A stretch of DNA of 64,000 nt, from NCBI RefSeq assembly GCF_012489685.1, contig NC_080043.1:41431127-41495126 (forward strand), read 5' to 3'. A program made the translations under genes and the position numbers. Below the pieces are notes generated by a model that was given only the letters and a program-made list of their open reading frames with translations, did no database searches and had not been told where the DNA came from. Source of the stretch: Lotus japonicus. Lineage: Eukaryota; Streptophyta; Magnoliopsida; Fabales; Fabaceae. Of the stretch, positions 22,303 through 55,554 are shown piece by piece; position 1 is the stretch's first letter; each line of letters starts with the position of its first letter.

Positions 22303-23420
22303 ATGGCTACCAAAAATCAATTCTATCAAATTTCATTTGCATTGGTTCTCTGTTTGGGATTGTGGGCTTTTCAAGTCTCATCTCGCACTCTCCAAGATGC
22401 CTCAATGCATGAGAGGCATGAGCAATGGATGGCTCGCTATGGCAAAGTCTATAAGGATCTCCAAGAAAAGGAAAAGCGTTTCAACATATTTCAAGAAAAT
22501 GTGAAGTACATTGAAGCTTCCAACAATGCTGGCAATAAACCTTACAAGCTAGGTGTTAATCAATTTACAGATCTCACCAATAAAGAGTTCATAGCAACTA
22601 GAAACAAATTCAAAGGACACATGAGCTCATCTATCACAAGGACAACCACTTTTAAGTACGAAAATGTAACCGCGCCTTCCACTGTGGATTGGAGGCAGGA
22701 AGGAGCAGTGACACCTGTGAAGAACCAAGGCACATGTGGTAAGTATTTGATAATTCATGCAAATTGAATCCAAGAAGTCAAGATTGAAATGTCATCTAAC
22801 TCTAGTTTCAATTAATTACCTTTCTAGGATGTTGTTGGGCCTTTTCTGCTGTTGCCGCGACAGAAGGAATTCATAAATTGAGTACTGGGAATTTGGTTTC
22901 TTTATCTGAACAAGAACTTGTTGATTGTGACACAAGTGGTGCAGACCAAGGTTGCCAGGGTGGTCTTATGGATGATGCTTTCAAATTCATCATCCAAAAT
23001 GGTGGACTCAACACTGAAGCTCAATATCCCTATCAAGGGGTTGATGGAACATGCAATACAAATGAAGAAGTTACCCATGTTGCTACCATTACTGGGTATG
23101 AGGATGTCCCTAGCAACAATGAGCAGGCACTGCAACAAGCTGTGGCTAATCAACCAATCTCTGTAGCAATTGATGCCAGTGGTTCTGACTTTCAAAACTA
23201 CCAAAGTGGTGTCTTCACTGGTAGCTGTGGCACTCAGTTGGACCATGGTGTTGCTGTTGTGGGTTATGGTGTTAGTGATGATGGAACCAAGTATTGGTTG
23301 GTTAAGAACTCATGGGGAGAAGATTGGGGTGAAGAAGGATACATTAGAATGCAAAGGGATGTGGAGGCCCCAGAAGGACTCTGTGGCATAGCAATGCAAC
23401 CATCTTACCCAACTGCATAA
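22303..23420 (+). CDS. Papain-type (C1A) cysteine protease, SAG39-like, one intron
   Basis: Exon 1 is 22,303-22,738, the 89 bp intron is 22,739-22,827 (GTAAGT...TTTCTAG, phase 1) and exon 2 is 22,828-23,420. The protein has 342 residues, the usual length. It starts with a signal peptide (about residues 1-27, hydrophobic [12 protein letters not shown]) and an I29 inhibitory propeptide with the ERFNIN-type pattern around residues 55-74. The mature enzyme begins near 124 (APSTVDWR). The oxyanion Gln142, catalytic Cys148 (GCCWAFS), His285 (LDHG) and Asn306 (KNSWG) are all present, and NVT at 121 is a possible glycosylation site. The intron splits the catalytic-site motif between Gly codon bases. 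Such enzymes degrade protein in vacuole or apoplast during senescence or stress. The start context ACCATGGC is favourable. No lesion is seen. Confidence 0.95.
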
Positions 23421-24287
23421 TTACCAAAAAAATTGATACCACTTGCAATTCTATTGCAATTTCTTCTTAAGTTCAAATTCATACTATCTGATATTTGTAC
23501 ATTGTACCCTCTACATGAACCATTCACCATTGTACCCCTCAATTTATACGCAATGAAATATAGTATTGTCATGATTATGACTTATGATACATAAGCATCC
23601 TGAGTTTTTTTTAAATGGATTGAATGAAATTTACAGATTTCAATATGTAGGATATGTAGGGGATTCAAGCACTCGATTGCACGAAGTAGTAGAGCGAGAA
23701 ATCACAGATAAAACACACAGCATCTTTGGTCACGCAGTTCGGCCAAATTGCCTACCTCTGCGGCTATAGAGTAGCTATAGCTCCTTTGTATTACTTGTAG
23801 CATGAAGCATGTGGTGCCAAGTACAACTTTTATGGTTACATTGTTATCCTATTTAGAGTTGATTCTTTTGATCTCTATTTTACAATAAAATCCTAATAAA
23901 TCCTATAACAATCCCTTAAAACCTTTTACAATCCACATTAAATCAAATCCTAATAAACTAAAGATTTTAGTCCAAAATATAATGAGTCAAATCTCAACAC
24001 AATAACATAATGAAAAGTTTATAAATCCAAAAATAATGAAGCTCCAAAAATAATGGAGCATTATGTTATGTTGGTTCAGGATCATTACTCTACTTATAAA
24101 TGTGAGTTTGATTGGTGGATGTTATTACCTATATATGTGTATTGTGTGTCTGTTTAGTAATTCACGAAGTACTATCCCATACTTTATTAATATGGAGACA
24201 AGCTATGATGGGTGAGATAGCTTCTACTTGGATACCCAACCAAACCTAGCCACTTAAATCATTTCTACATAGAAAATATGTTTTTAG
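23421..24287. other. 3' flank of the protease gene, with a copia-LTR-like fragment
   Basis: The first 150 bp resemble the 3' flank of the paralogue fragment after 46,821 and are probably 3' UTR. From about 23,640 to 23,800, the words CACGCAGTTCGGCCAAATTG and CTACCTCTGCGGC are typical of plant copia LTRs. No termini can be fixed. No further gene is visible. Confidence 0.4.
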
Positions 24288-26344: not shown

Positions 26345-26953
26345 ATTTGTTTAAGTTTAATTTTGTTAGGTTGTGGTTGTATTACAAGTTTGTATGCGTA
26401 AGTGTGAACAAAAAATTGAGCTTCTAAAGAGAAAGGGACTCAATGCTAAGACCGGTTAGAGCTCATTTACTGTTTTTGACTGATTATATGCAAAACTGGG
26501 CAACACTATATAGAAGTTATGAGATTCTCGTGTTTAGATGTATTGTATGTAAAAGTGAGAAGTGCTATATAGGAATTCTAGGAATATTTCCAAGTATTCT
26601 CAAGTATGTTAAAGTGAGAAGCACTATATATATGAAATTTGAAAATATTTGTTTAAGTTTAATTTTGTTAGGTTGTGGTTGTATTACAAGTTTGTATGCG
26701 TAAGTGTGAACAAAAAATTGAGCTTCTAAAGAGAAAGGGACTCAATGCTAAGACCGGTTAGAGCTCATTTACTGTTTTTGACTGATTATATGCAAAACTG
26801 GGCAACACTATATAGAAGTTATGAGATTCTCGTGTTTAGATGTATTGTATGTAAAAGTGAGAAGTGCTATATAGGAATTCTAGGAATATTTCCAAGTATT
26901 CTCAAGTATGTTAAAGTGAGAAGCACTATATATATGAAATTTGAAAATATTTG
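26345..26953. repeat. Perfect 302 bp tandem duplication
   Basis: 26,345-26,646 is repeated at 26,647-26,948 with no difference seen by eye, followed by the first five bases again (ATTTG). Each unit contains the same 77-86 codon open frame starting at ATGCTAAGACCGG (26,443 and 26,745). This has no recognisable motif and is not called as a gene. Confidence 0.95.
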
Positions 26954-27032
26954 TATGATATGTAAACTTTATTATTGATGTATAAGTATAATAGAAATAT
27001 CTCGTTCCTATTATAATCATATGAATGAATAA

Positions 27033-27899
27033 TGTTCCGTGCTAAAACATAGAGAAGAAAGGTAGTACTCAAAGTGTGAGGAAAGTGATGTGAATGCTTA
27101 GAGAGAGAAACTCTAACCGCTTAGAGAGAGAAACTTTAACCGCTTACAGAGAGAAAATATAACTGAATTTCAATGCTATTATTTCTCAAATGAGCTAAGA
27201 GTCCCTTACAATTGGTATTCCCCTCCTATTTATAGAGGTCGAGTTGGGCTTTGGGGCCTTTAGTCTGTCTAAATGGGTCAGTTGGGCTTCGGGAAGGGAG
27301 ACCCAAGGTCATGGTGTGTCCTACGCCCAAGGTCAGGTCTCCTGGGCGAGGGACCCTGGGGTCTCGCCTAGTCCACAAGTCCACAAGACACCGAGCTCGA
27401 AGCATGAGAGCTAAGTGTGTCTTTAAGCAAGAAACAAGGCAATAGCCCTAAGGATGCCGACTAAAACTTAAAAACTTAAAATCTAGAAGTGAAAAACGAT
27501 GGCCAACATGGCCTGATAAATAAAGCCTTTTGCAATCGACACTTTGGACCTTCAGCTGCGTCCTCTTCTTTCGGACGACCCCAGTCCACAAGCAGGCTTG
27601 TGGCGGCGGCTTTTAGTCTGCCCGCCTCAGCATAGTTATGCACGTACCTTGAATCGTGACACTCTGTCACGTGTTGTGTCCATCCCACGCGTCGAGCCTT
27701 GAAGTGATGTCAGGGTCAGTGAATCCACAGAATCTCAACCGCTACCTTTGACATGTCCCTTCCAGTCACGTCACAACTTTGACAATTTGAATTTTAACCA
27801 ATCGACAGCAACCGTTGCAGCTTTTCATTTAATGCGTCTTTCTCACTCCCTAAAATTTCGCAACTGCAATCATGTCATTTCCTGACGTCATGGGGCACA
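27033..27899 (-). repeat. 3' LTR of the Tat-like element
   Basis: It starts TGTTCCGTGC and ends GGGGCACA, immediately followed by ACCTCTCTTTTTTTCTCC, which on minus is a good polypurine tract. A minus-strand TATA box (TATAAATA, about 27,228-27,235) agrees with minus transcription. It contains one extra roughly 23 bp CTTAGAGAGAGAAA unit compared with the right copy. Confidence 0.75.
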
Positions 27900-28102
27900 A
27901 CCTCTCTTTTTTTCTCCACATCTCTCGGTAACCGTCCACAACTTCTTCCTACATGTTCCCTTCTGCACGTCACTCCCCGCTTATAACAGCATTATCTCAC
28001 TAACCCCTTTCGTTCCTTTACGATTACAAACCTTTGCTTTTTCACCCTTACGCGAACTTGTCCAGTGTCAAAATTACCTTTATTCCTTGCAATCCCTCTG
28101 CA

Positions 28103-30092
28103 ATGACTCCAAAGCGCCAGACCAAAAGTTCCAAACGTAATGTCGTCGCTGCCACCCCTCTCTGGTGCGTTCCTCTTGAAGAAAAAGACGGCATTGCCTT
28201 CCGAACGAGGACTTGGAAATCTTTAAGTGCTCCCGCCGCGAGGGCTTTGCCGGCCGGGACAATGCCTAACCAACGGTCAAGTTTGGAAAAAGAATCGTAC
28301 ATTTGGGAGATTTCCAAAGAATCGTCCATTTGGAAAAAGCTTATGTATGTCAGTCCCTGCTCACCCTTTGAACGCCCTTGGCTTCGTCCCAAAGACGACT
28401 TCGTGGGTGCTCCTCACTTCTTTTACGTGTATGGGTATATATTCACAAATTTGAAGATTAAATTTCTTTTTTCCCCTTTTATCTGCTCCGTTCTTCACAA
28501 TATCAATGTGGCTCCTAGTCAACTTCATCCACAAAGTTGGGCGTTCCTCCGGTGTTTCGAAATTCTCTGCGACGCGATTCACCAGGAACCTGAACCTTCA
28601 ACCTTCTTTTATTTCTATCGCGTATCTGTCCAGCCCTCCCCGCAGCGCAGCTGGGTTTCCCTAGAAGCTAGGCCTGGTCGTCAGCGCTTCAACCCTATCT
28701 GGCCTAGCATCACCGTCGATTTAGCCCAGATATTCTTCAGGGTTATGGTGTCCCACGAATATCCTGAGGTTTTCACACACAGAGATGGCACCGCTCGATT
28801 TCCTTTCTACTGGACTCAGGGCGCGCGCCAAATAATTGACTCGTCTGATGACTCCCTCACTCCTGAATACAAGGCTGTCATCGACTTGCTGGCCCGTCTC
28901 GTCGTTTCAGACTGCTCTCGCGTGATTGGTAAATCTTCCTCTTCTACCCCTCTCATTCTTTCTATTTTCTACCAGCTTACCTTTTCCTTTTTTTTTTTTA
29001 TTTTTAGGACAAACTCACTGTGCCGATGAGGAGCTTCTGGCGGCCTTTGAGAAGAAAAATAACGTCTCCTTTCCTCCTCGAATAAATTTGAAAGGCGACA
29101 AGGCGTCTCTGTTGAGAATACAGGCGAGCGGAAAACGGCCCCTTGGCGAGGAGGATCCTCGCCCTTCCCCGAAAAGGTTGAATTCCAGCGAGCCTTCAGG
29201 GACGATGCCAGCCCAACACGGTCTTGTCGACGACTCACTTTCCCGTCCAACAGTTATCTCGTCGCCGCTTGGTCCAAACTTGACGTCTTCCGCCAACGCC
29301 CCTCCTCCACCTGCTCATACTTCCACCCCCTCCTCAGAGTCTGTGAGTCGGGGATTCCCGTATTCTTTAACTTTGACATCAGCCCAAATGGCGCGAATGG
29401 ATGAAGTTGTTAAGCAGCGTGGTTTGGATAATGTCTCTGAAGGGGCTGTGGCGGGAGTGCTCCACGCGTTCCACTACTATAGGCGCTCCGCCCAGGATGC
29501 TGACGAATTACGATCCAAAGTGGCGCGCCTCCGCGCTCTCAATTCTCAACTTGCTGAGGATCGCGAAGTGCTCGCCGCTCAACTGATCGCCAAGGAAAAC
29601 TCATTTTCCAAAGAGCTAGCCGAGCAGTCCGCTCGTGCTGAAGTTAGCTTAGAGTTTCGAGATAGGAGGATTTCTGAACTGGAGAAAACTCTTGCAGAGC
29701 TGCGGCAGGAGGCGCAGCTAGAATTGAGCGCGAAAGCATACCAAATAGCTTTGACGGAGGCCGACCTTGAAAACCTTCGATCTGACCTGGCGAAGAAAGA
29801 TGATCTTCTATCCTCAGCGAAGACTCAAGCCCATCTTGACGCGAAGGCCTTAGAAGAAAGATTGAGGTCAAAGGCTGCTGTTGCTGCCGTTTCTAAACGC
29901 GGCCGAGGCTTCTTCCTCGCCAAAGCCCAAGTCAAACATCTCCATCCTCTGATTGATCTCAGCCAGATGGGGGCATTTAAGAGGGTTACACCCACAGGAT
30001 TGGTCGGGCCCGACGATCATCCAGGCTTCGTCGCCGAGCGTTTCCTGACGGAAGAACATGTAGAGCCAACTCAAAATGTTAGGAGTCCTTAG
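28103..30092 (+). CDS. Antisense accessory ORF of the Tat-like element, spliced, about 636 residues
   Basis: Exon 1 is 28,103-28,928, the intron is 28,929-29,007 (GTAAATC...TTTTTAG after a long T run) and exon 2 is 29,008-30,092; the joined frame stays open. An upstream ATG at 28,034 is in frame, but MTPKRQTKSSKR at 28,103 looks like the natural start. The N-terminal region, with VAPSQLHPQSWAFLRCFEILC-type sequence, matches my memory of the plant family annotated as 'putative gypsy type transposon' (PF04195). Exon 2 is Pro/Ser-rich and then a long Glu/Ala/Leu coiled coil (about residues 440-580). It runs opposite to gag-pol, with a TATA-like TTATAACA at 27,981. Its function is unknown. Confidence 0.75.
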
Positions 30093-30290
30093 ATTATCTT
30101 TATTATCTTTGTACCAAGGGTCTCTTTTTTTTTCTTATTTTTAATGAGAACCCCAAGTTTTTACTGCTTTTGCTATGAGTCTTTATTGTACGCCTCCCGC
30201 CGGGAGATAAACTATGCGGGACGTTCCTCTTAGGGAATTTCAAACGTCTGCCCAAGTGCTTCTTTTCCACGTTCCAACGGTTTACTGTTG

Positions 30291-30404
30291 ACCACCGGCC
30301 ACGAACGCTCAAGCCTTAATTGCAAGTCGCTCCTTTTCTAAGAAAAACTCCTCGAGAAACTGCTCAAACAATAACTTCCGGAGACTGAACCGGGCTTATA
30401 AATA
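30291..30404 (+). promoter_or_regulatory. Promoter of the small antisense ORF (gypsy copy)
   Basis: ACCACCGGCCACG at 30,291, CCTCGAGAAACTG at 30,350, CAATAACTTCC at 30,369 and TATAAATA at 30,397 precede the ATG at 30,460. The same four elements occur in the same order before the ORF at 35,765, with identical 19 and 28 bp steps between the last three. Confidence 0.72.
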
Positions 30405-30459
30405 AGAACCAAAACGCAGCAAACTTCACATCTCATCTGCTTTCTAAAACTTCAAGGAA

Positions 30460-30849
30460 ATGGCATCCTACATTGCCTGTTTGGAAGAGCTTAGAAAGAA
30501 AGCTTTTGATGAAGATCTCTTCATCAACGTTAGGCATCCGGAGGATCCCAACGTTTACGTCCTGACCAACAAGTTGCTGGGAATGGATTTGAGTCCAAAG
30601 ATGGACGTTATCCTTAGAAATTTCCTCTGCTTCGTGGAAGAGATTCAAGAGCTCTGCTGATGGGAGCTGGATTTGCTGGAGGAGATAGGAGCAGTGAAAA
30701 CAGCTCTGGAGACGGCGGAAGAAGGTCTTGAGAAGCTGGAGCTGAGCCGAAGACTGTGCAACCTAGAGTACAGGCAATACCGTTTGGAGCATGAGAGGAC
30801 AGAGCAACGCAAAGAATGTAGGAAAATGAGAAGAGATCCTCCCTTTTGA
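30460..30849 (+). pseudogene. Small antisense coiled-coil ORF, gypsy copy, one nonsense codon
   Basis: It starts MASYIACLEELRKKAF, has the conserved block FVEEIQEL, and ends KMRRDPPF: 130 codons including an in-frame TGA at 30,658-30,660. The frame reopens at once and stays aligned to the end with the intact homologue at 35,765. By eye, about half of the residues are identical and many of the others are conservative. The second half is Glu/Leu/Arg-rich with heptad-like spacing, so a coiled coil is likely. There is no signal peptide, membrane segment or known domain. It lies 370 bp after the large antisense ORF, in the same direction and opposite to gag-pol. The function is unknown. Confidence 0.7.
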
Positions 30850-31941
30850 ATGTATAAAGTCAAATATTTGAATAAAAGTTTTGTTTCCTGAATTGTTTTG
30901 ACGTGCATCATTATGAATCATACGAGCAAACAAATAACCGAGTTAGTAAATCGTCACGACACAAACAGATAAATGAAGGAATAAATGAATAATTAAATGA
31001 GCGAAGGATAGTTAAGCGGGCGAGGCGGGCGGCCCGCTACTTATCTTCGCCTTTCGTTGATCGCTGCTTAGCACGTGTTTTCAGTGCTTGTCTCCCAGTT
31101 TTACGTGAGTAATTTTCGAGAGTGTGCTACGTATAACTAGGACTTTCGCTCGGTATTTTACCGAGGCTTTTGTTCGCACCAATATTTCCCGTAAGAGCAG
31201 GTGCGGCCCCTCCAGCCTTATTAGGTGGGGATTTGCAGTTGCTCGGAGCCCAATGGCCATATGAGTTTACCCGAGACTTTTGGCCTAGTTAAAAAATGCT
31301 TCCCGCATTTCAGGAAGACTCGACTCGCCCAAATTTCAGGGAGGTTCTTTGGATAAGGAGCTTTATTCGCGCACGCCGCCAACGGGTGGCGACGGGAAGC
31401 TCATCCGCACACGTCGCCTGCAGGGGCTATGGTCAGCGCCGGACTTTCCGGAGTGATCCCCAGACATCAAGGTCGTGTTGGGATCGCCACCTTCAGGAAA
31501 TTTTCCCACCAGGCTGCCGTCTCAGTTCGATAGTTAGGAGTATTGCTAAGAATATCCTTTTGTATTTGATTTGTTTAAATTTTTACATCGAGGGATGCCT
31601 CGTTAAAAAACTCCCGTGTCGGAGAAAAAGAGTGCATCTTTATTTTGGTCCTTGCCTTTTGGTCTCCTTTTCAATCAGAGTATTACTCCCAGCATCCTGT
31701 CTTCCTCGCCTTCTTTGCCTTCTCTGCCGTGGCGAGGGATCTGTCCCTGTCCTTCCTCGCGATTGGCGGGCCGAGCTGACTTCGTTGGTCTTCTGTCCTC
31801 ATCCCTTTGTTGCTCGCCCTCCCTCTTGTTACCCCTTCCTTCTGCTGTTTTCTTTCCTTCATTCCCGGTCTGACGATGAGTTTCTCCCATTCCTGCCTTC
31901 CGAGGGGGCCAAGCAAATGCAGGCGGCTCCCCACAAACAAT
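30850..31941. other. Tat-like element interior, no gene supported; pol deletion lies here
   Basis: RT, RNase H and integrase should lie between the antisense ORFs and the protease, but no trace of their motifs is visible. An open plus-strand frame at 31,296-31,961 has no recognisable motif and overlaps the pol remnant, so it is not called. Confidence 0.5.
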
Positions 31942-32787
31942 TCATCTTTTCCCCCAATTGAAGAGGTCAACGTTATCTTCTACTATTTCACTCAAGCGTT
32001 GTTCTTGTTCCTTTGTGAGTCTGGGCTCGATTGTCAGTATTCCTCTACTGGTAGCGTTCATGTCCCAGTTCTCGTCATACAGCTCATTATCTTTTTGAGC
32101 GTAGAGCTTGCCTTCCCCTATCCTACGGGATTCTTCGCCCTGATTCCTCCCCTTCCTTTCGTCGCCGTCGCTCTGGTTCTGTGCTCCCAAACGCTCTTGT
32201 TCACCTTCACCGCCTTCAGACGTCCCAATCTTTTGGCACCTGTGCCCGTCACCAGCTCCTTTTCTGCCATACAGGTTGAGGCAATGGCTATTGCACTTCC
32301 TCGCCTCCTTTTGGTCTACTGCCAGTTTCCATATCCCTCCGCAAAGTAGGGGATACTTTACCGCAAGGTGGGCCGTAGATATCACTGCATGGAGGTGATT
32401 TAAGGTACCTCGCCATATGATGACGTTATAAGCAGCCGCGACTTGTAGGACCAGATATTTTATCCTCAAGAGCTCGGCGTCCTCGCCCACTCCGAAAACT
32501 GTATCCAACTCTACGTAGCCACGTACCTGAACTTGCTTCCCGGAGAAACCTACCAAACTTCCTGTGTATGGCTTTAAATCCTTGTCCGCCAGCCCCATCT
32601 GTCTGAATGCGTCCTCATAGATTATATCCGCCGAGCTGGCCTGGTCTAAAAGCACCCTCTGTACATTGAAACCTTTTATTCTTACCATTACTAATAACGG
32701 ATCGTTCGTATGGGCCTTGATTCCCTTGAAATCCGCGGTCGACATGACTATGTTTGGATGTGGGCACCCATATGGTCCTGGATACAC
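31942..32787 (-). pseudogene. Aspartic protease and start of RT region, Tat-like pol remnant
   Basis: The frame shows VQRVLLDQASSADIIYEDAF, the catalytic region of gypsy retropepsins, followed by a second conserved block GFSGKQVQVRGYVEL. Tat elements normally have a Gly after the residue next to the Asp (D-x-G-S-S). Here it is Ala, so activity is doubtful. The C-terminal end, RLTKEQEQRLSEIVEDNVDLF, is the leader found just before RT; the frame then stops at 31,942 and RT is missing. This frame is shifted relative to gag within 32,615-32,787. Confidence 0.8.
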
Positions 32788-33776
32788 CTGTACCGATGTT
32801 GTCGCCCCACTGTCTCCCGGCCCGCCGCCGATACGTCATTGCAAACTTCGAAACCTCCAGCGATTGTGTTCGTTGCTTCAACCGTTCCTCCGCCCTCGCC
32901 GCTATCAGCTTCTTCAAATTCCTTCCCCTTCGCCTCTGGCGGCCTTTCGCCCTGATAAGCTGCCTGATTCGACCCTTCAGCATGAAACAGTCGGTGGTGT
33001 TATGGCCCTCTAAGTTGTGGTACTCACACCACCTCAGCGGATTCCTCGCCTCGCTTCTGGGGTCCTTTCTGCACTCGTCGACTCTGTTCATATTCTCAAT
33101 TTCCGCCTCGAGAAGTAAATTTGCTAACTCCTTGTTTGAGCATCCCTGCGACCTCATTCGCTGGCTTACCTTCGCTTCTCGGCGAGGGAACCAGTGCTTT
33201 CTATCCCTCGTTTTCGGGTGGAGTAGTTGTCCTTTATTCTTCTTTAAGAACCGGCCAGCTTCCCCAAACCTCTGCTCACGACTTCCTTCCTTGTATTGTA
33301 TCATTTTCCTTGCCAGCGACACCTTTGTCGCACGCTCGCCCTTCCTCTTGTGCACTTCAATTTCCTCTTTTAAGATGTAGCCCTGCGCTCGGGCGCGGAC
33401 TTCCACCATTGAGCATGCCAGCTCCCTACTCAGCTCGCAATAAAATTCTCCCCAGGACAGACCGCCTTTGAAAGCGCACACGCACACGCGTGGCTGAAAT
33501 TCGTCGAACCTCGCGGATATGGCACTGTATCGTTTCACATATTGTGTCAAGGTTTCACGTTCCTCCTGCCGAATATCAAATAGATCCTCGATCGTCCTCG
33601 CAGAGAAATAGTCAAGGAATTTTGATGAGAAATCGCGGAACTTAGCTATGGATCCTGGAGGCAGATTCGTGAACCATTCCTTTGTCGCGCGTCAAAACGT
33701 TGATGGAAGCATCCTGCATTTCACAGCGTCGGAAACCGCGTACTTCGCCATCTTCGCATCAAAACGAGGCAGATGA
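32615..33776 (-). pseudogene. Gag (retrotransposon gag domain and zinc-knuckle-like motif), Tat-like element
   Basis: The frame continues the gag entering at 46,083. It runs PRFDAKMAKYAVSDAVKCRM, then a TGA at 33,692-33,694. It reopens through WFTNLPPGSI, FRDFSSKFL, QYVKRYSAISARFDEF (the core of the gag domain) and a motif WCEYHNLEGHNTTDC of the C-x2-H-x4-H-x4-C kind used in Tat gags. It ends at 32,615, where a frameshift separates it from the protease. The Sirevirus entered at 33,776. Confidence 0.82.
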
Positions 33777-34972
33777 TGAAGGTATGAAAAACGGTAGAAA
33801 GGGGGGGTTTGAATAACGTTTTCAGAATAAAACTTCCACCTTAAAGATTTTAACAAATCTTTCGAGAACAAAGTGCTTAAGATAAGAGATAGAAAAGCAC
33901 ACAAGGATTTTTATCCTTGTTCACTTGATAAATCCCTCAAGCTAATCCAGTCCACCCGTTAAGGTGATTTCTTCCTTCTTAGAATGAAGGCAATCCACTA
34001 ATCAGGTAAATGTTACAACTGCACTTGAAACCTACAAGTGACTAACAATTACACTGACTTAGCTCACACTAAGATTCACTCTCTTAGTCTTCTCTCGGAT
34101 CCGATCCTAAAGGTAACTAAACAACTGTTTTAGAAAGAATGTTTACAAAGAGTTTTCTTCTGAAAAGCTAATAGTAAACACAATGAATTCAGATGAAAGA
34201 ATGCTTAGAAGGTTTTTTGAATTTAGCTTGCGCGTGTGAGATTCTTCCAACCGCATCTTTCAATCTTCAGCCTCTATTTATACTCCAAGGATTAGGGTTT
34301 GAACGCTGCATGGAAATGCTACCGTTGGAGGGCAGTTCTGGAAATTCTAGCTTCTGCTATGGCTGAGAATGTTAGGTAGGTCGTCGGGATAGTACATTTG
34401 CTTTTGTACTTGGATAGTGACTTGACCTTTAAACCTAGTAGACTTCTGATCAGGGGAATGCTTCATGTTGGAACTTGTGAAGCCAGTTGATCAGAGTCAG
34501 AGGGAAGCACAGATCCTCTGACCGTTGTATCTTCTGATTCTGAACTCAGAGGGAAGTACATGGTCTTCAGAGTCATCTTGCTTCTGGACATCAGAGATTT
34601 CACGTTTCAGCTTCTGGATCTTCAGAGTCTTCTACACCATCAGAACATCTGAACCTTCAGAGTTTCTTGGTTGTCAGAACGTCTGAATCTTCAGAACTTC
34701 AAGTGATTGAGTCCATATCAGAGCTTTGTGTGGCTTCAGATCTTCTGAAGCGTTTCTACTGTTCATAGTGAACATAGATGTTGCGAAAGCGTTGCTTGGA
34801 TCACTCTTTATGCACAGTGCTTCTGATTTGTGTGAGATTGAATTGAGGTCAGAGCCTGTAAATAACACACTCAGAAAAACACGTTAGAGTACCATAATTG
34901 TTCATACTAAAATGTTAACTTGTAATCATCAAAACATAGAGTTGTACTACTCGATCAAAACTTGATCTTACA
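33777..34972 (-). repeat. 3' LTR of the Sirevirus
   Basis: TGAAGGTATG...GATCTTACA. A minus-strand TATA box (TATAAATA at 34,275-34,282) is consistent with the element's direction. The second half is dense in TCAGAG/CTTCTG words. Confidence 0.95.
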
Positions 34973-35610
34973 ATCTCCCCCTTTTTGATGATGACAAAAC
35001 CACGTATTTTGATGAACAATTCTTAAACAATAAACTGAATTCACTCAGAGTTTAGAGATATAGAAATAGACTTATCCTGATGTGAATAGTTTATTTTGCT
35101 CATCCTGAATCCATGTCACAGCTTGATTCTGAGCATAGCTCCCCCTGAATCTAAGACTTAATGAAAAATGTTAGAAATGTCTAGATTCTGAGCTAAATAA
35201 TGTAAGAGTTCAGAGTGAAGGCGCATGACATAGATGAAATAAAATAATCAGAGCGCATAAGTATTCAGAGTCAACGATAAGTGGTATCAGAGTCAAATAG
35301 AATCACTTCAGAAGAAGTGAAATGTATTCCTTGTATTTGCCCAGTGACACATCTATGGTCATAAAGGTGGAACTCTTAAATTCTCCAAAGGAAAAATAAA
35401 TCACACTAACACAGCTTACACATAAAAAACTGGGTGTACTCCCCCCTTTTTGTCATAAGCAAAAAGTATGAGGTGTGAAAAAGCTTAGCTTGAAGTACGA
35501 GGTACTCCCCCTTAGAGAAGGTCTAAGTTTAAAAAAATGGAGAAAGAAACGATGCATGAATGAGAGTTAAGCGAACTAAAGAAGGGAGTTAATGCAAAAG
35601 ATGAACGTTT
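34973..35610. other. Sirevirus 3' non-coding region
   Basis: It begins with the polypurine tract. No gene is seen on either strand before the promoter of the small antisense ORF. Confidence 0.6.
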
Positions 35611-35713
35611 ACCACCGGCCACGGGAGTAAATAGAAGCTTCAGTTACCAAGGACTTAACCTCGAGAAACTGTAGGAGCAATAACTTCCAAGGAGAGAATG
35701 AAGCTTATATAAG
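35611..35713 (+). promoter_or_regulatory. Promoter of the small antisense ORF (Sirevirus copy)
   Basis: ACCACCGGCCACG at 35,611, CCTCGAGAAACTG at 35,659, CAATAACTTCC at 35,678 and TATATAAG at 35,706 precede the ATG at 35,765. The matching boxes at 30,291-30,404 have the same order and nearly the same spacing. Confidence 0.75.
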
Positions 35714-35764
35714 GCGATTTAGAAGAGGGTAAGCTTCACAACTCAATCAATACCATAAAAAGAA

Positions 35765-36157
35765 ATGGCTTCATACATGGTCGCACTGGAAGAGCTCAGA
35801 AGGAAAGCCTTCGAGGAAGACATGTTCCTTAACATCCGGCACCCTGATGGTACACGAACGATACACGAGCTGACGAAGACACTGCTTGACGAAGACCTTT
35901 GTCCAGAGCTGGAGAAGGATTTGAAAGAATTCCTTGCCTTCGTGGAGGAAATTCAGGAACTCAGCCAGCTTGAGCTGAATTTACTGGAAGAGAAGGAAGC
36001 TATGGAAAAGAGACTCAAGACGACAGAAGATAGTCTGGAGAGGGATGAGCTGAACAACAAACTCAACAACATCCAGTATTCATTGGATCATCTGGAGAAA
36101 GAAAGGGTAGAGCAGCGCCAAGAATGCAGAAGAATGAGGAAGGATCCTCCATTCTAG
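35765..36157 (+). CDS. Small antisense coiled-coil ORF, Sirevirus copy, intact (130 residues)
   Basis: It starts MASYMVALEELRRKAF and ends RRMRKDPPF with no interruption. An N-terminal half contains FLNIRHPDG and FVEEIQELSQLEL. The C-terminal half is very rich in Glu, Lys and Leu with heptad-like spacing, so a coiled coil is likely. It has no signal peptide, membrane segment or known domain. The homologue at 30,460 in a gypsy element is about half identical, with matching ends and one short indel near residue 30. It is transcribed against the element's own genes, from its own TATA-containing promoter, and ends 187 bp before the end of the env-like ORF. It could be a captured host gene or an accessory gene of the element. 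Confidence 0.78.
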   Translation: MASYMVALEELRRKAFEEDMFLNIRHPDGTRTIHELTKTLLDEDLCPELEKDLKEFLAFVEEIQELSQLELNLLEEKEAMEKRLKTTEDSLERDELNNKLNNIQYSLDHLEKERVEQRQECRRMRKDPPF

Positions 36158-36343
36158 ATTTAGGGACAAAATGTATGATGTAATAAACATAAATTATTAT
36201 GAATAAAGAAAAGGATTTTGCAAACACAAGGTCATTTATATATATGCAATGATAAACTACTAGTAAGCAAAACATAGCAAGTAATGCAAAGAAAATAGAA
36301 ATAAAGAGAAATTAAGTTAAGAAAAACGAAAGAAATCCTAAAA

Positions 36344-39229
36344 CTAAGGTTTATCAGAGCGACGCAGGAGTTCTTGAAGAATTTGCTTCATGTCCATCAG
36401 CAGAGTCTCATGAGAATTAAGACGTTGTTCCATGATATCAAGTCTGGAAGAACTTGGCTGTGTAGAGCTAGAAGGAACATTCTGAGCAGATTGATGAGCT
36501 TGAGTGGAATCAGAAGCAGCAGGAGTGAAGACCACTGGTGCAAGAGCTTGACATCTAAGAGCTTCAGCTTCAGCTTCAAGTCTCTCAGCTTCTAATCTTG
36601 CATTTTCAGCTTGTACAGCCGCTTGACGTGCAGCTTCTTCTGCTTGCTCTTTCTTTCTTCTGGCCTCTTCAACAGCTTCAAGTAACTTAGTTCTTTGCTG
36701 TTGTTCATGCAGAGCCACTCTTCTTGTAAACCGCTGCCTAGCAGCCTCAATCCTCTGATCCCTTTCTGCAGTGAGATGACTCATCATAATAGGAACCTGA
36801 GCAACTAACCAAGTACTCAGACGATTCCATTCTTCAGCAACAGAGTCAGCGTTCTCACTCAGGTCAGTGTGACCTTGCACATTGCGTAACATCAGTGAAG
36901 CTTCATGATTAAAAACACTGATGCACTCAGAGAGAGAGGTTGGCCTGAGATATGTGTAGGGAATAATGGAGAGGTTGGTTTCAGGAGAGGTTGGGTGGTT
37001 GCTGCGGTTTGCCTCAGAGGCACCTTGAGGAGAGCCAATATCAAAAGTTTGGACATTTGGTTCAGAGGCTCCAAGGTTTGGTTCAGAGGTTTCAACCTGA
37101 GGATGTGGTGATCTAACCGAAGAGTGATTAGACACAGAGTTTTCTGGTTCTGGTTGAATAGGCTCTTGATGAACTTGGTCAGATTGGACTTGTTGGGTTA
37201 AAGGGTCTGCTTCATGCAAGGGTTCAGCCTGGATAGGATCATCTGGGTCAACTAGATGTTCTGGTCTAGGTCCAGGGTATCTCCTGGGGCTTGGTACTGT
37301 GAGGTAGTACTCTGGAATGGCAGACACTTTTTCTTTCCTGACGTCCAAAAATTTACGAAGTGACTCAGAGTTGTTGGAAGGTGAGGAGTCAGCAACATTG
37401 GTAGGAAAGGATACAGAAGTATAGGGAGTGGAAGAATCTGTATCAGCAGTTCTACGATCAGGACGTTCTGATGCTCTGGGGACAGAGTGATCAGACGTTC
37501 TGGGTTCAGGTTCTGGATGTTCAAGTTCTGGTTGTTCAAGAATGATGGGTTCAGAGGTTAGTGGGTTGTATTGGATGGTAATGGGAGAGGTTGGTTCAGA
37601 GGGACGTGGAGTCTGAAGCATATTCCACAGAGGTGCTTCTTCTTGGGAAGGTTGAAAAAATGAAGACCTTGGGGAATTAGGTGGAGATGTGGTTTGAGCA
37701 GCTGGTTGAGACTCTGGGATAGGAGTGAGTTAGGTGGCGGTGCGGTTAAGAAGTGTAGAGATGGGGAGTGCATCAAGTGAATTTAAATCATCATCAGATT
37801 CAGTGACAGCAGACTTACTTGATGAACGCACGACAAACCGAGTCACTCTGGCAGAAGTCTCCATTCTGATGACTGCAGCAGCAGGTTCCACACGGGTAGG
37901 CTTATCCACAATTCTGACTTGCTTCTTCTTTTTCTTTGGAGGAGAAGGACCATCATCATTATCACCATCATCACCATCATCAGGCTTGGTGGTTTCATCA
38001 TGCTTCCTCTTAGGCTTGTCAGCCTTCTTCTTCTTCTTCTTCAGAGGAACATCAGACTCCTCAGAAGATTCCTCCAAGACCATTTTTCTCTGAACTTTCC
38101 TCTTGGGAGGAGAGTCAAACTCTGGAGCTGGTGGCAATCGCTTGAAGAACTCATCTACATCAATCTCAAACCCTTGTTGCTTCAGATCATCAATGTAGCA
38201 CAAAATAGCTTCTGGGTTGTCTGCTTGGGTCCACAAAGGGAAATCATTCAGAGGCACCCTTCTTTGTCTTACTTCATCAGAAGTATCTTCATGAACAGGG
38301 GCTATTTTCTTCTTGACCAATCCCATCTTCTTCAAAGATGTGGATGTGAAGACATCACTGACAATTGTAGACAGATCCTCTGTGCATCCTGCCTTGATCA
38401 GATCTTCTACGAATTTACTCTCAATGAAGAGATCTGAAAGCAGTCTCCCAAAGGGGATGTACTTGATGGCAGACTTGATGGAGGCAGTGGTTCTGGACTT
38501 CCTGATGCATTCTTTCATGTAAGAGAACAAGAAGAAAGGAAGGCGGATCTTCCTCTTATCCTGAATGAAGAATAGCATTGCCTTCTGGCAGAAGTTGATG
38601 TAATCAGGAGAGCTACCCTTTGGCCTCTGGTTGATGCAGTGAAGCAGAATCTTGTGCTAGATTCTGAGCTTGGGATGAAGATCCACCACCTTGTAGTCGC
38701 TCTTGCCATGTTTGTAGTTGGTGTAAAGAGCCTTGTTGGTTTCTTCCTTTGTTCTGGGTTTCAACTTCGATTCTGTCAGTTGGAATCTATACCCAGTTCC
38801 AGTGTGTGCACCCAGCAGATTCACAATGGACTTCTCAGTGATGATTATCCTCCTTCCAGCAATGTAGGAGACAACTTGTGTATCATCACAGTCCGTGTGT
38901 TTCCAGAATTCCTTGACCAATTTGTCATAAATTGGACCTCTAAGCCTGTTGAAATACTCTTCCCATCCCTGAACTTGAACTTCAGGACGAAGATCATACC
39001 CATTTGCAGCTATATTATCCAGGTCGAATCTCCATTTAGCAAGCACTTGGAGTTCTTCCGGAGCATAAACGCAGTGAACGGCACAGCCCCTTTCTGCAAT
39101 CGGAATCATCTTCTCTGAAGCTTGACCTTGATTAGGAGCTTCAGGACCCAATTAGCCTGTAGCTTGACCTACTACCATATGAGGAAACCTGGTTGCATCT
39201 GCAACTTCGTTTCTGTTTTGTCTCACCAT
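36344..39229 (-). pseudogene. Sirevirus env-like ORF, three nonsense codons
   Basis: One frame runs from the ATG at 39,229 (MVRQNRNEVADATRF) to 36,344, 962 codons, broken by TAA at 39,150-39,152, TAG near 38,657 and TAA at 37,730-37,732. Order: an N-terminal part with AERGCAVHCVYAPEEL and RGPIYDKLVKEFW; a Lys-rich, acidic part with several KKKKK runs; a long Pro/Ser/Glu stretch; and a strong Ala/Glu/Arg coiled coil near 36,570-36,740 (minus). This layout, downstream of pol, matches the env-like ORF of SIRE1-type elements. Its role is unproven, and envelope function is only a hypothesis in the literature. I see no convincing membrane anchor. Confidence 0.82.
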
Positions 39230-39659
39230 TTTGAAGTCGGTTGAAGGTTTTGGGTAGAAGGAGAAAGATGTACAGAGAGAGAGAGAGATCGTGGGGATAA
39301 GTTTTTGAAAAACTGAAGAGAGAGAAGGTAAAACCGTAAGTGTAGGAGAACGTGTGTGTATAGTGGGTTTTGACAAATAACCGTTGTTGGTCAAAAAACA
39401 ATTTAAAATCAACGGTTAGAAATTAAAAACATGATAGTAGCAGTTAATACACATATCACACGCAGGAGAGAAGCACATCAACACTCATTACGACAGACTG
39501 TCACAAGGGCACAAGGAACTATGCATCAGAGATACTGACACGTTTACTGTCTCAGCTTCAGAGTCAGCACCAATGGGTACATAAACTCTGATAGAGTTAC
39601 CTTCTGGACTAGACATCTTCTGATAAAGAAGTATAATAGTCAGAGGTTCTGAACCATCT

Positions 39660-42600
39660 TCATGCTGGACAAAAGTCCATATTCAGATTTTTCAGAATGA
39701 AATTAAATCTATCCTCTGCTAAGGGCTTTGTAAAGATATCTGCCCATTGATGGTCAGTATCAACAAACTTCAGAAGAAGTACGCCCATCTGTACATAATC
39801 TCTAATAAAGTGATACTTTACCTCAATGTGCTTTGCCCTTGAATGTAAGATAGGGTTCTTACTCAATGAGATTGCAGCAGTGTTATCACAATAGATTGGG
39901 ATATTGCTCTCAAGGATTTGATAATCCTCCAGCTGATGTTTCATCCAGAGCATCTGAGTGCTGCATATTGCTGTTGAGATATATTCTGCCTCTGCAGTAG
40001 ATAGTGCAATGGTTGATTGCCTCTTGCTTGCCCATGAGACTAAGTTGCTTCCCAGAAATTGACAATTTCCAGAAGTGCTTTTTCTCTCTGTTCTATCTCC
40101 AGCATAATCAGCATCACAATAACCTGAAAGCTTATACTCTGATGTTTTCTTATACATCAAGCCAAGGTTAGTGGTACCTTTCAGATACCTTAGGATCCTC
40201 TTAACAACAGTTAAGTGGGTTTCCCTTGGATCTGATTGGAAACGAGCACATAAATGAACACTAAACAATATATCTGGCCTAGATGCAGTTAAGTATAGAA
40301 GTGATCCTATCATACCACGATAGAGCTTCTGACAAACTTTACCACTTGCATCTTCTTTCTCCAGAATGCATGTAGAATGCATTGGAGTCTTGGCAATTGT
40401 AGATTCCAGCATATTGAACTTCTTCAGAAGTTCTTTAATGTACTTGCTCTGATGGATATATGTTCCTTCTGGTGTTTGATCAACTTGTATTCCCAGAAAG
40501 TACTTGAGTTCTCCCATCATACTCATCTCAAATTCAGCCTGCATCATCTCAGAAAATTCTTTGCATAGAGATTGATTAGCAGAACCAAATATAATATCAT
40601 CAACATAAATTTGCACAATTAAGATATCATCTTTGTAAGTTTTGCAAAAGAGAGTTGTATCTACTTTACCCCTTACAAACTCATTCTCCAGAAGGAATGA
40701 GCTGAGTCTCTCATACCATGCTCTGGGAGCTTGCTTCAGACCATAGAGTGATTTCTTCAATTTGAAAACATGGTCTGGGTTCTTTTCATCCTCAAAACCT
40801 GGGGGTTGATGAACGTAGACTTCCTCTGATATCAGCAGTCTGATTGCTTCTAGTCTTGCTACTGGAGCAAATGTTTCTGTGTAGTCTATTCCTTCCTGCT
40901 GGCTATAGCCTTGAGCAACTAGCCTTGCCTTGTTTCTGACTACATCTCCTTTCTCATTCAACTTGTTTCTGAACACCCATTTTGTTCCAATTACATGGAC
41001 ACTTTGAGGCTTCTTCACTAGGCTCCAAACATCATTCTTGGAAAATTGATTCAATTCTTCTTCCATGGCCAGAATCCAGTCCTTGTCCTGAAGAGCTTCA
41101 TCAATTGACTTGGGTTCAATTAAGGACACCAATCCTTTCAGACTGAGCAGGGTCTCTTCAGAGGGTCTGAAGGCTGATCTGGTTCTGACTGGTTCGTCTT
41201 TGTTGCCCAGAATCAATTCCTTAGGATGAGCTGCAGTGATTCTGCTCTTCTTCTGAGTTTGTGAATTAGAGGGACCAGCTTCTTCTGGTTCATCTTCCTC
41301 TGGCTCAGCTTCCTCTGGAGCTTTGCCTTTGTCAGAAACACTTATACTTAAATCTGCAAATTTCTCAACTAGCTTTGACTGGTCAGAGTCAAGCTTATCG
41401 TCAAATCTAACATGAATAGATTCTTCAATTGTTTTAGCATCAGTATTATAGAATCTGAAACCTTTAGATCTCTCAGACTAACCAAGTAATAGACATTTAG
41501 AGGACTTAGCATCAAATTTATAAAATCTATCCTTAGTATTAAGAACATAACAAACACAACCAAAAGGATGAAAGTAAGAAATGTTGGGTTTTATATTCTT
41601 CCACAATTCATAGGGAGTCTTATTCAGAATTGGTCTCACAGAGATTCTGTTCTGAATGTGACACGCTGTGCTTACTGCCTCTGCCCAAAAGTGCTTAGCT
41701 ATGCCAGTTTCTTGGAGCATGGTTCTAGCCATCTCCTGAAGAGTTCTGTTCTTCCTCTCACCAACACCATTTTGTTGAGGAGTTCTGGGGCAAGAGAAAT
41801 CATGTGCAATTCCATAGGAATCAAACAGACACTCAAACTTGTCATTCTCAAACTCTCCACCGTGGTCACTTCTGACACGCACAATCCTACAAGCCTTCTC
41901 GTTTTGCACCTAGGCTATGAAGGTAGAGAACACAACATGAGACTCATCCTTGCGGGTTAGAAATTTTACCCATGTCCAGCGGCTATAGTCGTCAATAATG
42001 ACCATCCCATATCTCTTGCCACCTATAGACTCAGTTTTCACTGGTCTAAATAGGTCGATATGCAGAAGTTCCAACGACCTTGAGGTTGAGACAACATTCT
42101 TTGCCTTGAAAGGGACTTTTGTGAATTTGCCTTTCTGACATGCTTCACAAAGAGCGTCTGAAGAGAACTTCCGAGTGGGCAAGCCCCTGACAAGGTTTAG
42201 CTTGCTCAGCTGAGAAATCTTTCTCATACTGGCATGCCCTAACCGTCTATGCCATACCCATTGCTCTTCATTAACAGACAGAAGGCACTTCACATTCTGA
42301 GCCTCCAACTCAGATAATCTGATATTATAAATGTTGTTCTTCCTCTTGCTGTTAAATAGAACAGAGCCATCGATCTGACTTACAGCCCGGCAGGACTTTT
42401 GATTAAAGATAACATCATAACCCTTGTCAGCTAATTGACTTATAGACAATAAGTTATGAGTTAAGCCGTCTACCAATAAAACATTGTCAATGCATGGACT
42501 ACTATCTACACAAATAGTACCAGTACCAACAATTTTACCCTTTTCGTTGCCACCAAATCCAACTTCGCCTCCAGGCTTAAGTTTTAGCTCTTGGAACATA

Positions 42601-44484
42601 CGCATTTCTCCCGTCATGTGACGCGAGCATCCACTGTCCAGATACCATGATTGGTGTTTCAGTGGAGCTATCAAGGATATCTGCAACATAGATAATCTTA
42701 TCCTTAGGTACCCACTTTCTGGGTCCTCTCTTGTTAGTTACCCCAGAGGTTCTGATCACCTTGGGTTTCTCAACATGGTAATGTAAAGGAATTTTTGCAT
42801 GATATTTAGACATGGAGAAGGATCCCTTTTTAAGAGGAGGTTTAGCAACTTCAGCAGGTAAAGGATCAGGTAAAATGGTACCAGAGGGAACAAAGCATTC
42901 ATACAAAGATTTAACTTTAGGCATAGAAGGCTCATTTCTAATTGGTTTAGAATAGCCAATGCCATGCATTCCATTTCTGCTTACGCCATAGATCATTGAA
43001 GCCATTAAGCTCCTATCTACACTTTTAGCCAGGAATCTTTGAAAATATTTTTCATACTTAGATTCATGCTTACTATCAGAGGCATCGCAGGTAATAACTT
43101 CTTCTAACTTAGCAATTTGATTCTTAAGCACAGAGTTAGTATTCGCTAAAGCATGGTTATCATTTTTCAAATCAGAAATGATTTTCTCATGTTCAGAAGG
43201 AGTCTTAGAAACATCAGATAAGTTCTTTTTCAGCTTCTTATGCTTAGACAATAAAGAGTTATACTTATCCATGATATCAGACAAAGCATGTTTCAGTTCA
43301 GAGGTTGAGAAAGAAGCGAATACCTCATTTTCATCGTCTGAGTTAGGATCTCCTTCTGATTCTGAGTCAGAGTCAACAACATCCTTTGACTCTGCTCCTT
43401 TGTTTTTGACAATGGCCATGAGTCCTTGGACTTCTCCATCAGAGTCAACATCCTCTGACTCTGATTCATCAAAAGTCACCATCAGACTTTTCTTGGTCTT
43501 GAAGTGCTTCTTCGGCCTCTTGTCCTTCTTCAATTTTGGACAGTCACTTTTGTAGTTCCCTGATTCTTTGCACTCAAAGCATGTGACTTACTTAATTGAG
43601 GACTTCTTCTGACCTGAGGATTCAGACTTTCCTTTGGCCTTTCCAGAGCCTTTGTACTTGCTCTGCCTGTGCTTCCAGATACAGTTGAGTCTTTTAGAGA
43701 TCAGAGTCAGCTCATCTTCATCAGAATCTTCTGATGCTTCTTCAGATTCTTCTGCTTCAGCTTGAAGAGCTTTTGACTTTTCTGCTTTAGCCTTCTCAGA
43801 TTTGGATTTTAAGGCTATTGACTTCTTCCTCAGATCTTGCATCTCTGAGCGCTTCAGCTCATGGCACTTCAGTATGCTAATGAGTTCTTCTAAACTCATA
43901 CGCTCAACATCCCTCGTAAGCTCTATTGAGGTCACCAAGGGCATCCAGCTTTCAGGAAGACTTCTGATGACCCTTATGACATGATCTTTTGTTGTGTAGC
44001 TCTTTTTGAGAGGTCGTATTCCAGCTACAAGCAACTGAAATCTGGAGAACATTTCTTCAATGGACTCGTTTGGCTCCATGATGAAGGATTCATACTTTTG
44101 GATCAAAGACAATGCCTTTGATTCTTTGACTTTCTTGTTTCCTTCATGAGACATCTTCAGGGATTCAAAGATGCCTTTTGCATACTCACGATTTGTAATC
44201 TTCTGGTACTCTTCATAAGAGATAGCACTTAGAAGAATTGCTCTAGCTTTGTGATGTTGTGAGTAAAGCTTCTTTTGATCTGCAGTCATCTCTGACCTTG
44301 GGATCTTCTTGCCTTCTTCATCAACTGGACGCTCATAGCCATCCACAATAATATCCCAGAGATCTGCATCAAAACCCAGAAAGAAACTTTCAAGTCTATC
44401 TTTCCAATATTCGAACCTTTGACCGTCGAACATGGGAGGCTTTGCATTGTAACCATCTTTTTGCGTTTCACTGGTGGTAGCCAT
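39660..44484 (-). pseudogene. Sirevirus gag-pol polyprotein, disrupted
   Basis: Gag begins MATTSETQKDGYNAKPP at 44,484. A TAA at 43,588-43,590 lies just before the zinc knuckle, whose His is replaced by Asn (CFECKESGNYKSDC). A frameshift near 42,640 precedes the protease (WYLDSGCSRHM). Integrase keeps its HHCC region and acidic residues (HIDLF, RSDHGGEF, NGVGERK) but has TAG at 41,910-41,912 and, after it, TAG at 41,478-41,480. RT is open to 39,660, yet it lacks about two dozen codons near 40,830: the block with the first catalytic Asp that should stand between LEAIRLL and [20 protein letters not shown] is intact. RNase H (TAEAEY, CDNTAA) is intact. The element cannot be autonomous. Confidence 0.9.
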
Positions 44485-44566
44485 TGTTTTTCACACCGGC
44501 CCGGATCACTGAACACTGTTAGGTGTGATAATCAGAACTTGCGCTCTGATACCAATTGAAGGTATG

Positions 44567-45776
44567 AAAAACGGTAGAAAGGGGGGGTTTGAATAACGTT
44601 TTCAGAATAAAACTTCCACCTTAAAGATTTTAACAAATCTTTCGAGAACAAAGTGCTTAAGATAAGAGATAGAAAAGCACACAAGGATTTTTATCCTGGT
44701 TCACTTGATAAATCCCTCAAGCTAATCCAGTCCACCCGTTAAGGTGATTTCTTCCTTCTTATAATGAAGGCAATCCACTAATCAGGTAAATGTTACAACT
44801 GCACTTGAAACCTACAAGTGACTAACAATTAGACTAACAATTACACTGACTTAGCTCACACTAAGATTCACTCTCTTAGTCATCTCTAGGATCCGATCAA
44901 ACTTGATCTCCTAAAGGTAACTAAACAATTGTTTTAGAAAGAATGTTTACAAAGAGTTTGCTTCTGAAAAGCTAATAGTAAACACAATGAATTCAGATGA
45001 AAGAATGCTTTGAAGGTTTTTTGAATTTAGCTTGCGCGTGTGAGATTCTTCCAACCGCATCTTTCAATCTTCAGCCTCTATTTATACTCCAAGGATTAGG
45101 GTTTGAACGCTGCATGGAAATGCTACCGTTGGAGGGCAGTTCTGGAAATTCTAGCTTCTGCTATGGCTGAGAATGTTAGGTAGGTCGTCAGGATAGTACA
45201 TTTGCTTATGTACTTGGATAGTGACTTGACCTTTAAACCTAGTAGACTTCTGATCAGGGGAATGCTTCATGTTGGAACTTGTGAAGCCAGTTGATCAGAG
45301 TCAGAGGGAAGCACAGATCCTCTGACCGTTGTATCTTCTGATTCTGAACTCAGAAGGAAGTACATGGTCTTCAGAGTCATCTTGCTTCTGGACATCAGAG
45401 ATTTCACTTTTCAGCTTCTGGATCTTCAGAGTCTTCTACACCATCAGAACATCTGAACCTTCAAAGTTTCTTGGTTGTCAGAACGTCTGGATCTTCAGAA
45501 CTTCAAGTGACTGAGTCCATATCAGAGCTTTGTGTGGCTTTAGATCTTCTGAAGCGTTTCTACTGTTCATAGTGAACATAGATGTTGCGAAAGCGTTGCT
45601 TGGGTCACTCTTTATGCACAGTGCTTCTGATTTGTGTGAGATTGAATTGAGGTCAGAGCCTGTAAATAACACACTCAGAAAAACACGTTAGATTACCATA
45701 ATTGTTCATACTAAAATGTTAACTTGTAATCATCAAAACATAGAGTTGTACTACTCGATCAAAACTTGATCTTACA
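44567..45776 (-). repeat. 5' LTR of the Sirevirus
   Basis: It has the same termini as the 3' LTR, with two insertions of about 12 bp relative to it near 44,830 and 44,905. The minus TATA box is at 45,079-45,086. The primer-binding site abuts it on the left. Confidence 0.95.
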
Positions 45777-46291: not shown

Positions 46292-46293
46292 AA

Positions 46294-46821
<528 letters not shown>

Positions 46822-48570: not shown

Positions 48571-49114
48571 GGTTAAGCGTCATATTGGTCCCTGTCTTTG
48601 TCTCGCAGTCTGAGGTAAGTCTCTCCCCGAAAAATTTATTGCATTTAATCCTCGTGTTTGAACTTTCTTTGGAGCGAATCCTCGCCAGAGGGCAGAGCTC
48701 CGACGAGTTCTTAAATGGCATGCTCACGGGGTTTAAAATGCTTATGTGGATTTTAAAAATAAATTACACATCATAAAATTAACAAAATTAAAACATATTA
48801 CTAATTCTAACCTAATCTAATTAACAAAATTAATTTCTCCCCCAAATTAATCTCAATTCCCCCAAATTAACCCAATTCCTTTTGAACTATCATCAACTTC
48901 ATCAATCTTCATCAATCTTCAAACCCAGGACCCCACCATCAACAATCAATCTTCATCAATCTTCAAACCCAGAAATCATCAATCTTCATCAATCTTCAAA
49001 CCCAGAACCACACCATCAACCATCAACCTGCAACCTCACCCTCACCCTACTTCACCCTCACCTTCACGGTCTCACCCAACCTCAACCTCACCCTCACCCA
49101 CCTGCAACCTGCAA
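48571..49114. other. Possible Mutator-like terminus and C-rich repeat, cut by a gypsy LTR
   Basis: GGGTTAAGCGTCATATTGGTCCC at 48,571 is the kind of edge seen on long-TIR Mutator-like elements; the opposite end is not visible. From 48,885 to 49,110 the words TCATCAATCTTCAAACCCAG and CAACCTCACCCTCACC recur irregularly. TGCAA at 49,110-49,114 is the probable target duplication of the following gypsy element. Confidence 0.35.
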
Positions 49115-55551: not shown

Positions 55552-55554
55552 AAT

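Follow-up and report, generated by a model that had tools for sequence, protein, structure and literature searches.

A small antisense accessory gene is present in two unrelated families of long terminal repeat (LTR) retrotransposons of Lotus japonicus, a Sirevirus of the Copia superfamily and a Retand element of the Gypsy superfamily, both of which occur in the 64,000-nucleotide stretch of DNA analysed here (the window; contig NC_080043.1, positions 41,431,127 to 41,495,126, with coordinates below numbered from its first nucleotide). The genes of the two carriers are homologous and occupy the same location, their reading frame is open and under purifying selection in both, and an upstream module is shared with some of the Retand copies. 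These data favour, at a probability of roughly 0.6, the view that this is a self-contained gene, carried by at least two unrelated retrotransposon families, that passed between them in one old transfer and encodes a protein helping its carrier in trans.

The intact copy (35765-36157, plus strand), recognized from the list of open reading frames (ORFs), by reading and by genome search, encodes a protein of 130 amino acids (P0001) and lies in the Sirevirus. The Retand copy (30460-30849, plus strand) is, on codon reading, broken by an in-frame TGA at codon 67 (30658-30660) and is thus a pseudogene. An earlier reading of the window from its sequence alone (the sequence-only reading) had described two related plus-strand ORFs of about 130 residues; the homology and the intact frame at 35765-36157 stand, but 30460-30849 is not a single ORF. 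Local DNA alignment of the two gene regions scored 313, against 50 for the best of 100 single-base shuffles, which rules out chance similarity. The two proteins are 54% identical, in line with the earlier estimate of about half, and both begin with MASY, finish with DPPF and contain the FVEEIQEL block, as had been picked out by eye. Over 553 cross pairs, Retand and Sirevirus proteins share 49-71% identity (median 58%). The gene is an intronless ORF of 129-130 codons. In the 3′ flank of the intact copy (36158-36210, plus strand) an AATAAA, read as a possible poly(A) signal, lies 27 nt past the 390-nt coding stretch; this hexamer, a common word in AT-rich DNA that was counted without a control, occurs within 110 nt downstream of 66 of 84 copies.

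In both carriers the gene is antisense to gag-pol, as the sequence-only reading had proposed, and lies between pol and the 3′ LTR; the carriers are on the minus strand. The Sirevirus (33777-45776), delineated by self-comparison, is nested in the Retand element and bounded by LTRs at 33777-34972 and 44557-45776 that are 96.6% identical. Its reverse transcriptase was identified through the Pfam domain RVT_2 (E 2.7e-66, 39663-41216, minus strand). The assignment to Sirevirus is based on this Copia reverse transcriptase, the long LTRs and several copies of the polypurine tract (PPT) octamer AGGGGGAG beside the 3′ LTR. Reading of the linker (34973-35600) located three of the PPT octamers, CTCCCCCT on the plus strand, at 34975, 35139 and 35505, the terminal one adjoining the 3′ LTR; such octamers next to the 3′ LTR of Sireviruses are described in the accessible part of PMC2829016. 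The accessory gene adjoins an ORF (36344-37621, minus strand) that is env-like by position only and has no Pfam match above cut-off.

The second carrier, which the sequence-only reading had recognized as a gypsy element alongside the Sirevirus, is here placed in Retand. It displays antisense TRP28 frames (PF04195, Transposase_28; 28034-30092, plus strand) upstream of the small gene, an arrangement typical of Retand in the portion of PMC11963269 available. The PF04195 match on 28034-29029 (E 7.5e-5) reached 23.3 bits and is below the curated cut-off of 26.2 bits, while the overlapping frame 28926-30092 gave only chance-level Pfam matches (best E 0.076). On the minus strand the ORF list contains two frames, 31942-32787 and 32615-33550, that we take, by reading, to be of protease and gag type, respectively; Pfam detected no domain on either. 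Between the protease-type ORF and the antisense genes (28034-33550) no ORF for reverse transcriptase, RNase H or integrase was seen. In a second Retand copy, L078, the protease-type sequence likewise runs straight into the antisense genes, and because L078 keeps this contiguous order the Retand carrier may represent a non-autonomous gag-protease family, in which case the missing ORFs would not reflect a deletion peculiar to one copy.

The distribution of the gene was explored in the L. japonicus genome (553,688,102 bases in 65 contigs) with two protein queries, P0001, for which 150 of 4288 candidates were scored, and P0004, for which 150 of 4256 were scored. By our own count 139 and 125 of these 150 matches, respectively, lack an internal stop. 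Eighty-five loci were read: the top 30 of each search (L001-L030, where L001 is the window's own Sirevirus copy, and L051-L080), 20 hand-picked from lower rows of the P0001 search (L031-L050) and five rows of the P0004 search chosen by length and identity (L081-L085). Among L001-L080 there were 79 Sirevirus copies and one Retand copy (L078), and L081-L085 were all Retand; with the Retand copy of the window, the 86 copies read comprise 79 Sirevirus and seven Retand genes. In all 79 Sirevirus copies the gene is flanked by sequence of the linker, the 3′ LTR or the env position; on our reading the env side is visible in 77, and 74 have 3′ LTR sequence, partial or inverted in a few of them. Retand TRP28 or downstream sequence, which the sequence-only reading had said would betray a nested fragment, adjoined the gene in none of the 79. 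By contrast, L078 carries an intact gene flanked by TRP28 at 91% and downstream sequence at 92%. The gene has no internal stop in 67 of the 79 Sirevirus copies and is intact in five of the seven Retand copies, the exceptions being the window copy, with its stop, and L083, which has lost the start codon and has an altered end. As a separate observation, positions 3310-3389 of L078 (on the strand of the gene) are an inverted 84% match to a Sirevirus LTR end; because this piece starts where the Retand protease sequence ends, L078 seems also to hold a Sirevirus insertion.

Purifying selection acts on the gene in both carriers. The median ratio of nonsynonymous to synonymous divergence (dN/dS) is 0.132 among Sirevirus genes (79 copies, 3081 pairs), 0.107 among Retand genes (seven copies, 21 pairs) and 0.162 across carriers (the 472 of 553 pairs for which dS is finite), values that are biased low through dN because the loci were chosen by protein similarity. 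The size of dS suggests that a neutral reading is nevertheless untenable, and the selection on the protein that had been surmised from conserved frame and ends is borne out across many copies, with dN/dS near 0.13 and not near 1. In a frame control on 50 Sirevirus copies, pooled dN/dS was 0.179 in the true frame. The two remaining frames of the plus strand gave 1.05 and 1.86, and the three of the minus strand 0.985, 0.293 and 2.277; stops interrupted the true frame in three copies but each of the five other frames in at least 47. These controls rule out a non-coding explanation. Set against the env-position ORF of its own elements, the gene has diverged less at nonsynonymous sites and more at synonymous ones (medians over 33 independent pairs: dN 0.027 and dS 0.154 for the gene, dN 0.041 and dS 0.107 for the env-position ORF). 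Its dS exceeds that of the env-position ORF in 23 of the 33 pairs, and 164 of 1255 fourfold sites differ in the gene compared with 468 of 5551. The notion of a silently hyper-divergent coding sequence, whose dS reached 1.8 compared with about 0.1 for the linker, mostly shrank when independent pairs were used.

Two further patterns of divergence were observed. In all four Retand comparisons with the window (28926-30092 and 30460-30849), dS of the small gene was larger than that of the TRP28 frame (0.61 and 0.19 for L078, 1.2 and 0.16 for L081, 0.7 and 0.5 for L082, 0.55 and 0.35 for L083). Six Sirevirus genes (L032, L035, L040, L050, L016 and L030) are patchworks in which one third of the coding sequence is 79-85% identical to L001 and another 92-98%, with flanks mostly about 90-97% identical. 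The pattern has the appearance of segments exchanged among copies. An ad hoc recombination index computed for 50 copies was only marginal: 20 of 500 permutations gave values no higher than the one observed.

The similarity of the two genes extends upstream of the coding sequence. In the Sirevirus copy (35611-35764, plus strand), reading and a genome-wide motif scan defined the blocks ACCACCGGCCACG, CCTCGAGAAACTG and CAATAACTTCC at −154, −106 and −87 relative to the ATG of the gene at 35765, followed by a TATA box at −59; in the Retand copy (30291-30459, plus strand) the blocks were read at −169, −110 and −91 and the TATA box at −63. The identical order and the 19 and 28 bp steps reported previously are exact in both window copies. 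The core motif, CCTCGAGAAACTG-N6-CAATAACTTCC if one mismatch is allowed, is present at 571 sites in the genome, while a control with the reversed pattern found none; by eye, at least 29 of 100 listed sites lie directly upstream of gene copies found here, that of Retand L078 included. Upstream regions of five Retand and four Sirevirus copies were compared, each with 200 shuffles. Against the Sirevirus copy L051, the window's Retand copy (RETwin), L078 and L083 scored 61, 69 and 54, respectively, where shuffle maxima were 28-31, and 12 of the 20 comparisons exceeded the best shuffle. The upstream module is thus common to the Sirevirus copies and at least three of the five Retand copies compared, and the TATA box together with the common blocks may be regarded as a putative promoter, its activity being suggested by sequence.

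In an unrooted protein tree of 31 copies (all seven Retand and 24 of the 79 Sirevirus genes), the Retand genes constitute one side of a branch with support 100/99, and L051 represents the Sirevirus lineage nearest to them. Another tree, which included database proteins, is in agreement, placing P0006 and P0007 on the Retand side, the latter on a long branch and with an unsure placement, and P0002-P0004 on the Sirevirus side. As the Retand genes form a single group, this unrooted topology is consistent with a single old transfer of the gene and its upstream module between Copia and Gypsy, and repeated exchange between the superfamilies is not supported.

The protein, 129-130 residues long, is acidic (isoelectric point (pI) 4.8-4.9). 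AlphaFold2, supplied with 36 sequences, returned a mean predicted local distance difference test (pLDDT) score of 71.5, with helices at residues 47-86 and 90-126 mostly of good confidence, and predicts a coiled-coil hairpin over residues 47-126. Structure prediction, one of the checks suggested by the sequence-only reading, provided a helical hairpin but no PDB fold match at E≤0.001. Pfam contained no family above cut-off for the small protein; the best match (E 0.03) and other sub-cut-off matches were rejected as coiled-coil noise. A sequence search of the PDB likewise gave nothing at E≤0.001 (best E 0.35). PF04195 did not match P0001, P0004, P0006 or P0007, so the gene falls outside the TRP28/gene23 family. 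Scans of bacterial genomes and viral contigs with P0001 detected no relatives. One protein database search found four proteins at E≤0.001; another, in which scoring was limited to the 7995 candidates with most words in common, aligned seven at E≤1. An assembly of Bradyrhizobium sp. TM233 contains the gene (P0003 and P0008); since the strain is tied to sorghum-root isolates in the accessible portion of its literature, these two proteins are probably plant contamination and indicate nothing firm about other host species.

If these observations are combined, the TATA box, which precedes the ATG by about 60 bp, would drive an mRNA opposite to gag-pol, and this transcript would be translated into the small acidic coiled-coil protein. 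The protein may then benefit its carrier in trans, the likeliest role being that of a regulator in the nucleus or at the level of expression, by analogy with the roles proposed for the Grande and Retand antisense products. A function in regulating element or host expression accounts for about one third of our expectation. A bolder extension, which we consider tentative and rather doubtful, is that the cassette is a common good: promoter and gene would have crossed between Copia and Gypsy and spread to hundreds of copies by acting in trans, for example against host silencing, for elements with differing gag-pol.

Several points weigh against a self-contained, transferred and trans-acting gene. 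A common upstream module could not be demonstrated for all Retand copies, as the upstream region of L082 exceeded the best shuffle in none of four comparisons and that of L081 in one (33 versus 28). One minus frame also shows the low pooled dN/dS of 0.293, though it contains stops in 47 of 50 copies, and the choice of loci by protein similarity lowers dN as described above. The first 40 residues of the structural model have pLDDT values of 46-58, against the mean of 71.5; the fold gives no functional clue (best Foldseek E against the PDB 1.0), and an acidic pI by itself does not suggest DNA binding. The case as a whole is built on sequence comparison and predicted structure.

The alternative that retains most weight, while still unlikely, concerns function: the protein could be a component of the particle or pre-integration complex and not a regulator. 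The predicted helical hairpin (residues 47-126, mostly of good confidence) is compatible with this, and selection in both element types, whose gag proteins differ, would require a generic role, such as nuclear entry; an antisense promoter of its own, if used, would however uncouple the protein from gag-pol dosage. Roles other than these two share the remaining probability. Somewhat less probable is a different origin, in which both families captured gene and promoter separately from the same host gene. The unit does resemble a complete small gene, and with no outgroup to root the tree its topology is equally compatible with two captures of close relatives. Against this, neither the protein database searches nor Pfam contained a host homologue among the matches scored, and antisense orientation and position between pol and the 3′ LTR are the same in both carriers. 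Because the searches of the L. japonicus genome scored 150 of 4288 and 150 of 4256 candidates, a host gene keeps some probability. It is very improbable that the antisense transcript is what matters, through double-stranded RNA or transcriptional interference, and that the ORF is a by-product: antisense transcripts of other elements have been discussed in these roles (PMC7264820), but dN/dS values of 0.11-0.16 speak for the protein, as does the finding that most copies keep just one of the six frames open. The proposal that the Sirevirus copy is just a piece of Retand, brought into a single Sirevirus by insertion or recombination, can practically be dismissed, for although the window does show a Sirevirus nested in Retand, the 79 Sirevirus loci, with Sirevirus flanks and no Retand flanks, rule out such an artefact, and the Sirevirus genes hold their own side of the tree.

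Other parts of the window complete the outline of the Retand carrier and its surroundings. Part of the Retand 3′ LTR is located at 27033-27287 (minus strand, start set by reading), where 27031-27287 matches 46292-46525 at 86.8%. The latter, recognized by self-comparison and reading, is the remnant of the 5′ LTR (46292-46525, minus strand), just inside which is a stretch (CGGCGCC) resembling a primer-binding site. This remnant abuts, at 46521-46525, a segment (46521-46831) that is 85% identical to 23120-23430 and that by eye appears to be the terminal part of a papain-like cysteine protease. At 26345-26954 there is a perfect tandem duplication of 308 bp. Long direct repeats at 49112-52219 and 55551-59056 are 97% identical, the second containing an expanded short tandem array near 56528-56939, and a further repeat pair (5156-8224 and 59075-62247) is 87-90% identical.

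Conservation of one protein in two superfamilies with unrelated gag-pol narrows its function to a shared need, and its selection in two settings provides an internal comparison. The data also suggest that, in Lotus, part of the Sirevirus linker hitherto treated as non-coding is a gene, and the intact copies and upstream motif make transcription and localization testable in a model legume. A survey of extra ORFs in plant Gypsy elements was reportedly conducted by Steinbauerova et al. in 2011. In the literature found, judged mostly from listings, no plant Copia element was described as carrying an antisense gene, nor was such a gene described as common to Copia and Gypsy.

The sequence-only reading had stated that no described family fits; this holds for the protein, which matches none in Pfam or the PDB, but not for its setting, as an antisense accessory ORF between pol and the 3′ LTR is already described for Retand, Grande and RIRE2 in the available portions of PMC7264820 and PMC11963269, where such ORFs appear as a Gypsy trait, above all of Retand. 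The Grande antisense gene is transcribed under its own promoter and yields a nuclear product (PMC7264820). The antisense ORFs of Retand, Grande and RIRE2 (TRP28 proteins, gene23) resemble the Lotus gene in orientation and position, but, as far as those portions extend, are confined to Gypsy and mostly exceed 600 nt with TRP28, whereas the Lotus gene encodes 129-130 amino acids without TRP28, adjoins a TRP28 gene in Retand and occurs also in a Copia genus. Common bean ORF2 (15 Gypsy families) and Lotus LjRetro26 are likewise legume Gypsy ORFs opposite to the retrotransposase; by the description in the accessible part of PMC4093653, the bean ORF2 differs in its length of 211-939 amino acids and its restriction to Gypsy, two Copia families there having env-like extra ORFs. 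The Sireviruses Lotus2 and LjRetro3, likened here by description, also come from Lotus, and Lotus2 is close in size to the Sirevirus carrier (12.12 kb, with LTRs of 1.22 kb and a linker of 1.68 kb, compared with 12.0 kb and 1.2 kb in the window), but in what is accessible of PMC2829016 the linker outside env is treated as non-coding. In bdelloid rotifers the same accessory ORF3 is found in LTR and Penelope-like Athena elements and is explained by exchange; according to the available sections of PMC5408684, however, those ORFs encode enzymes (GDSL, DEDDy) with cellular relatives in animal hosts, and no antisense gene with its own promoter is reported there.

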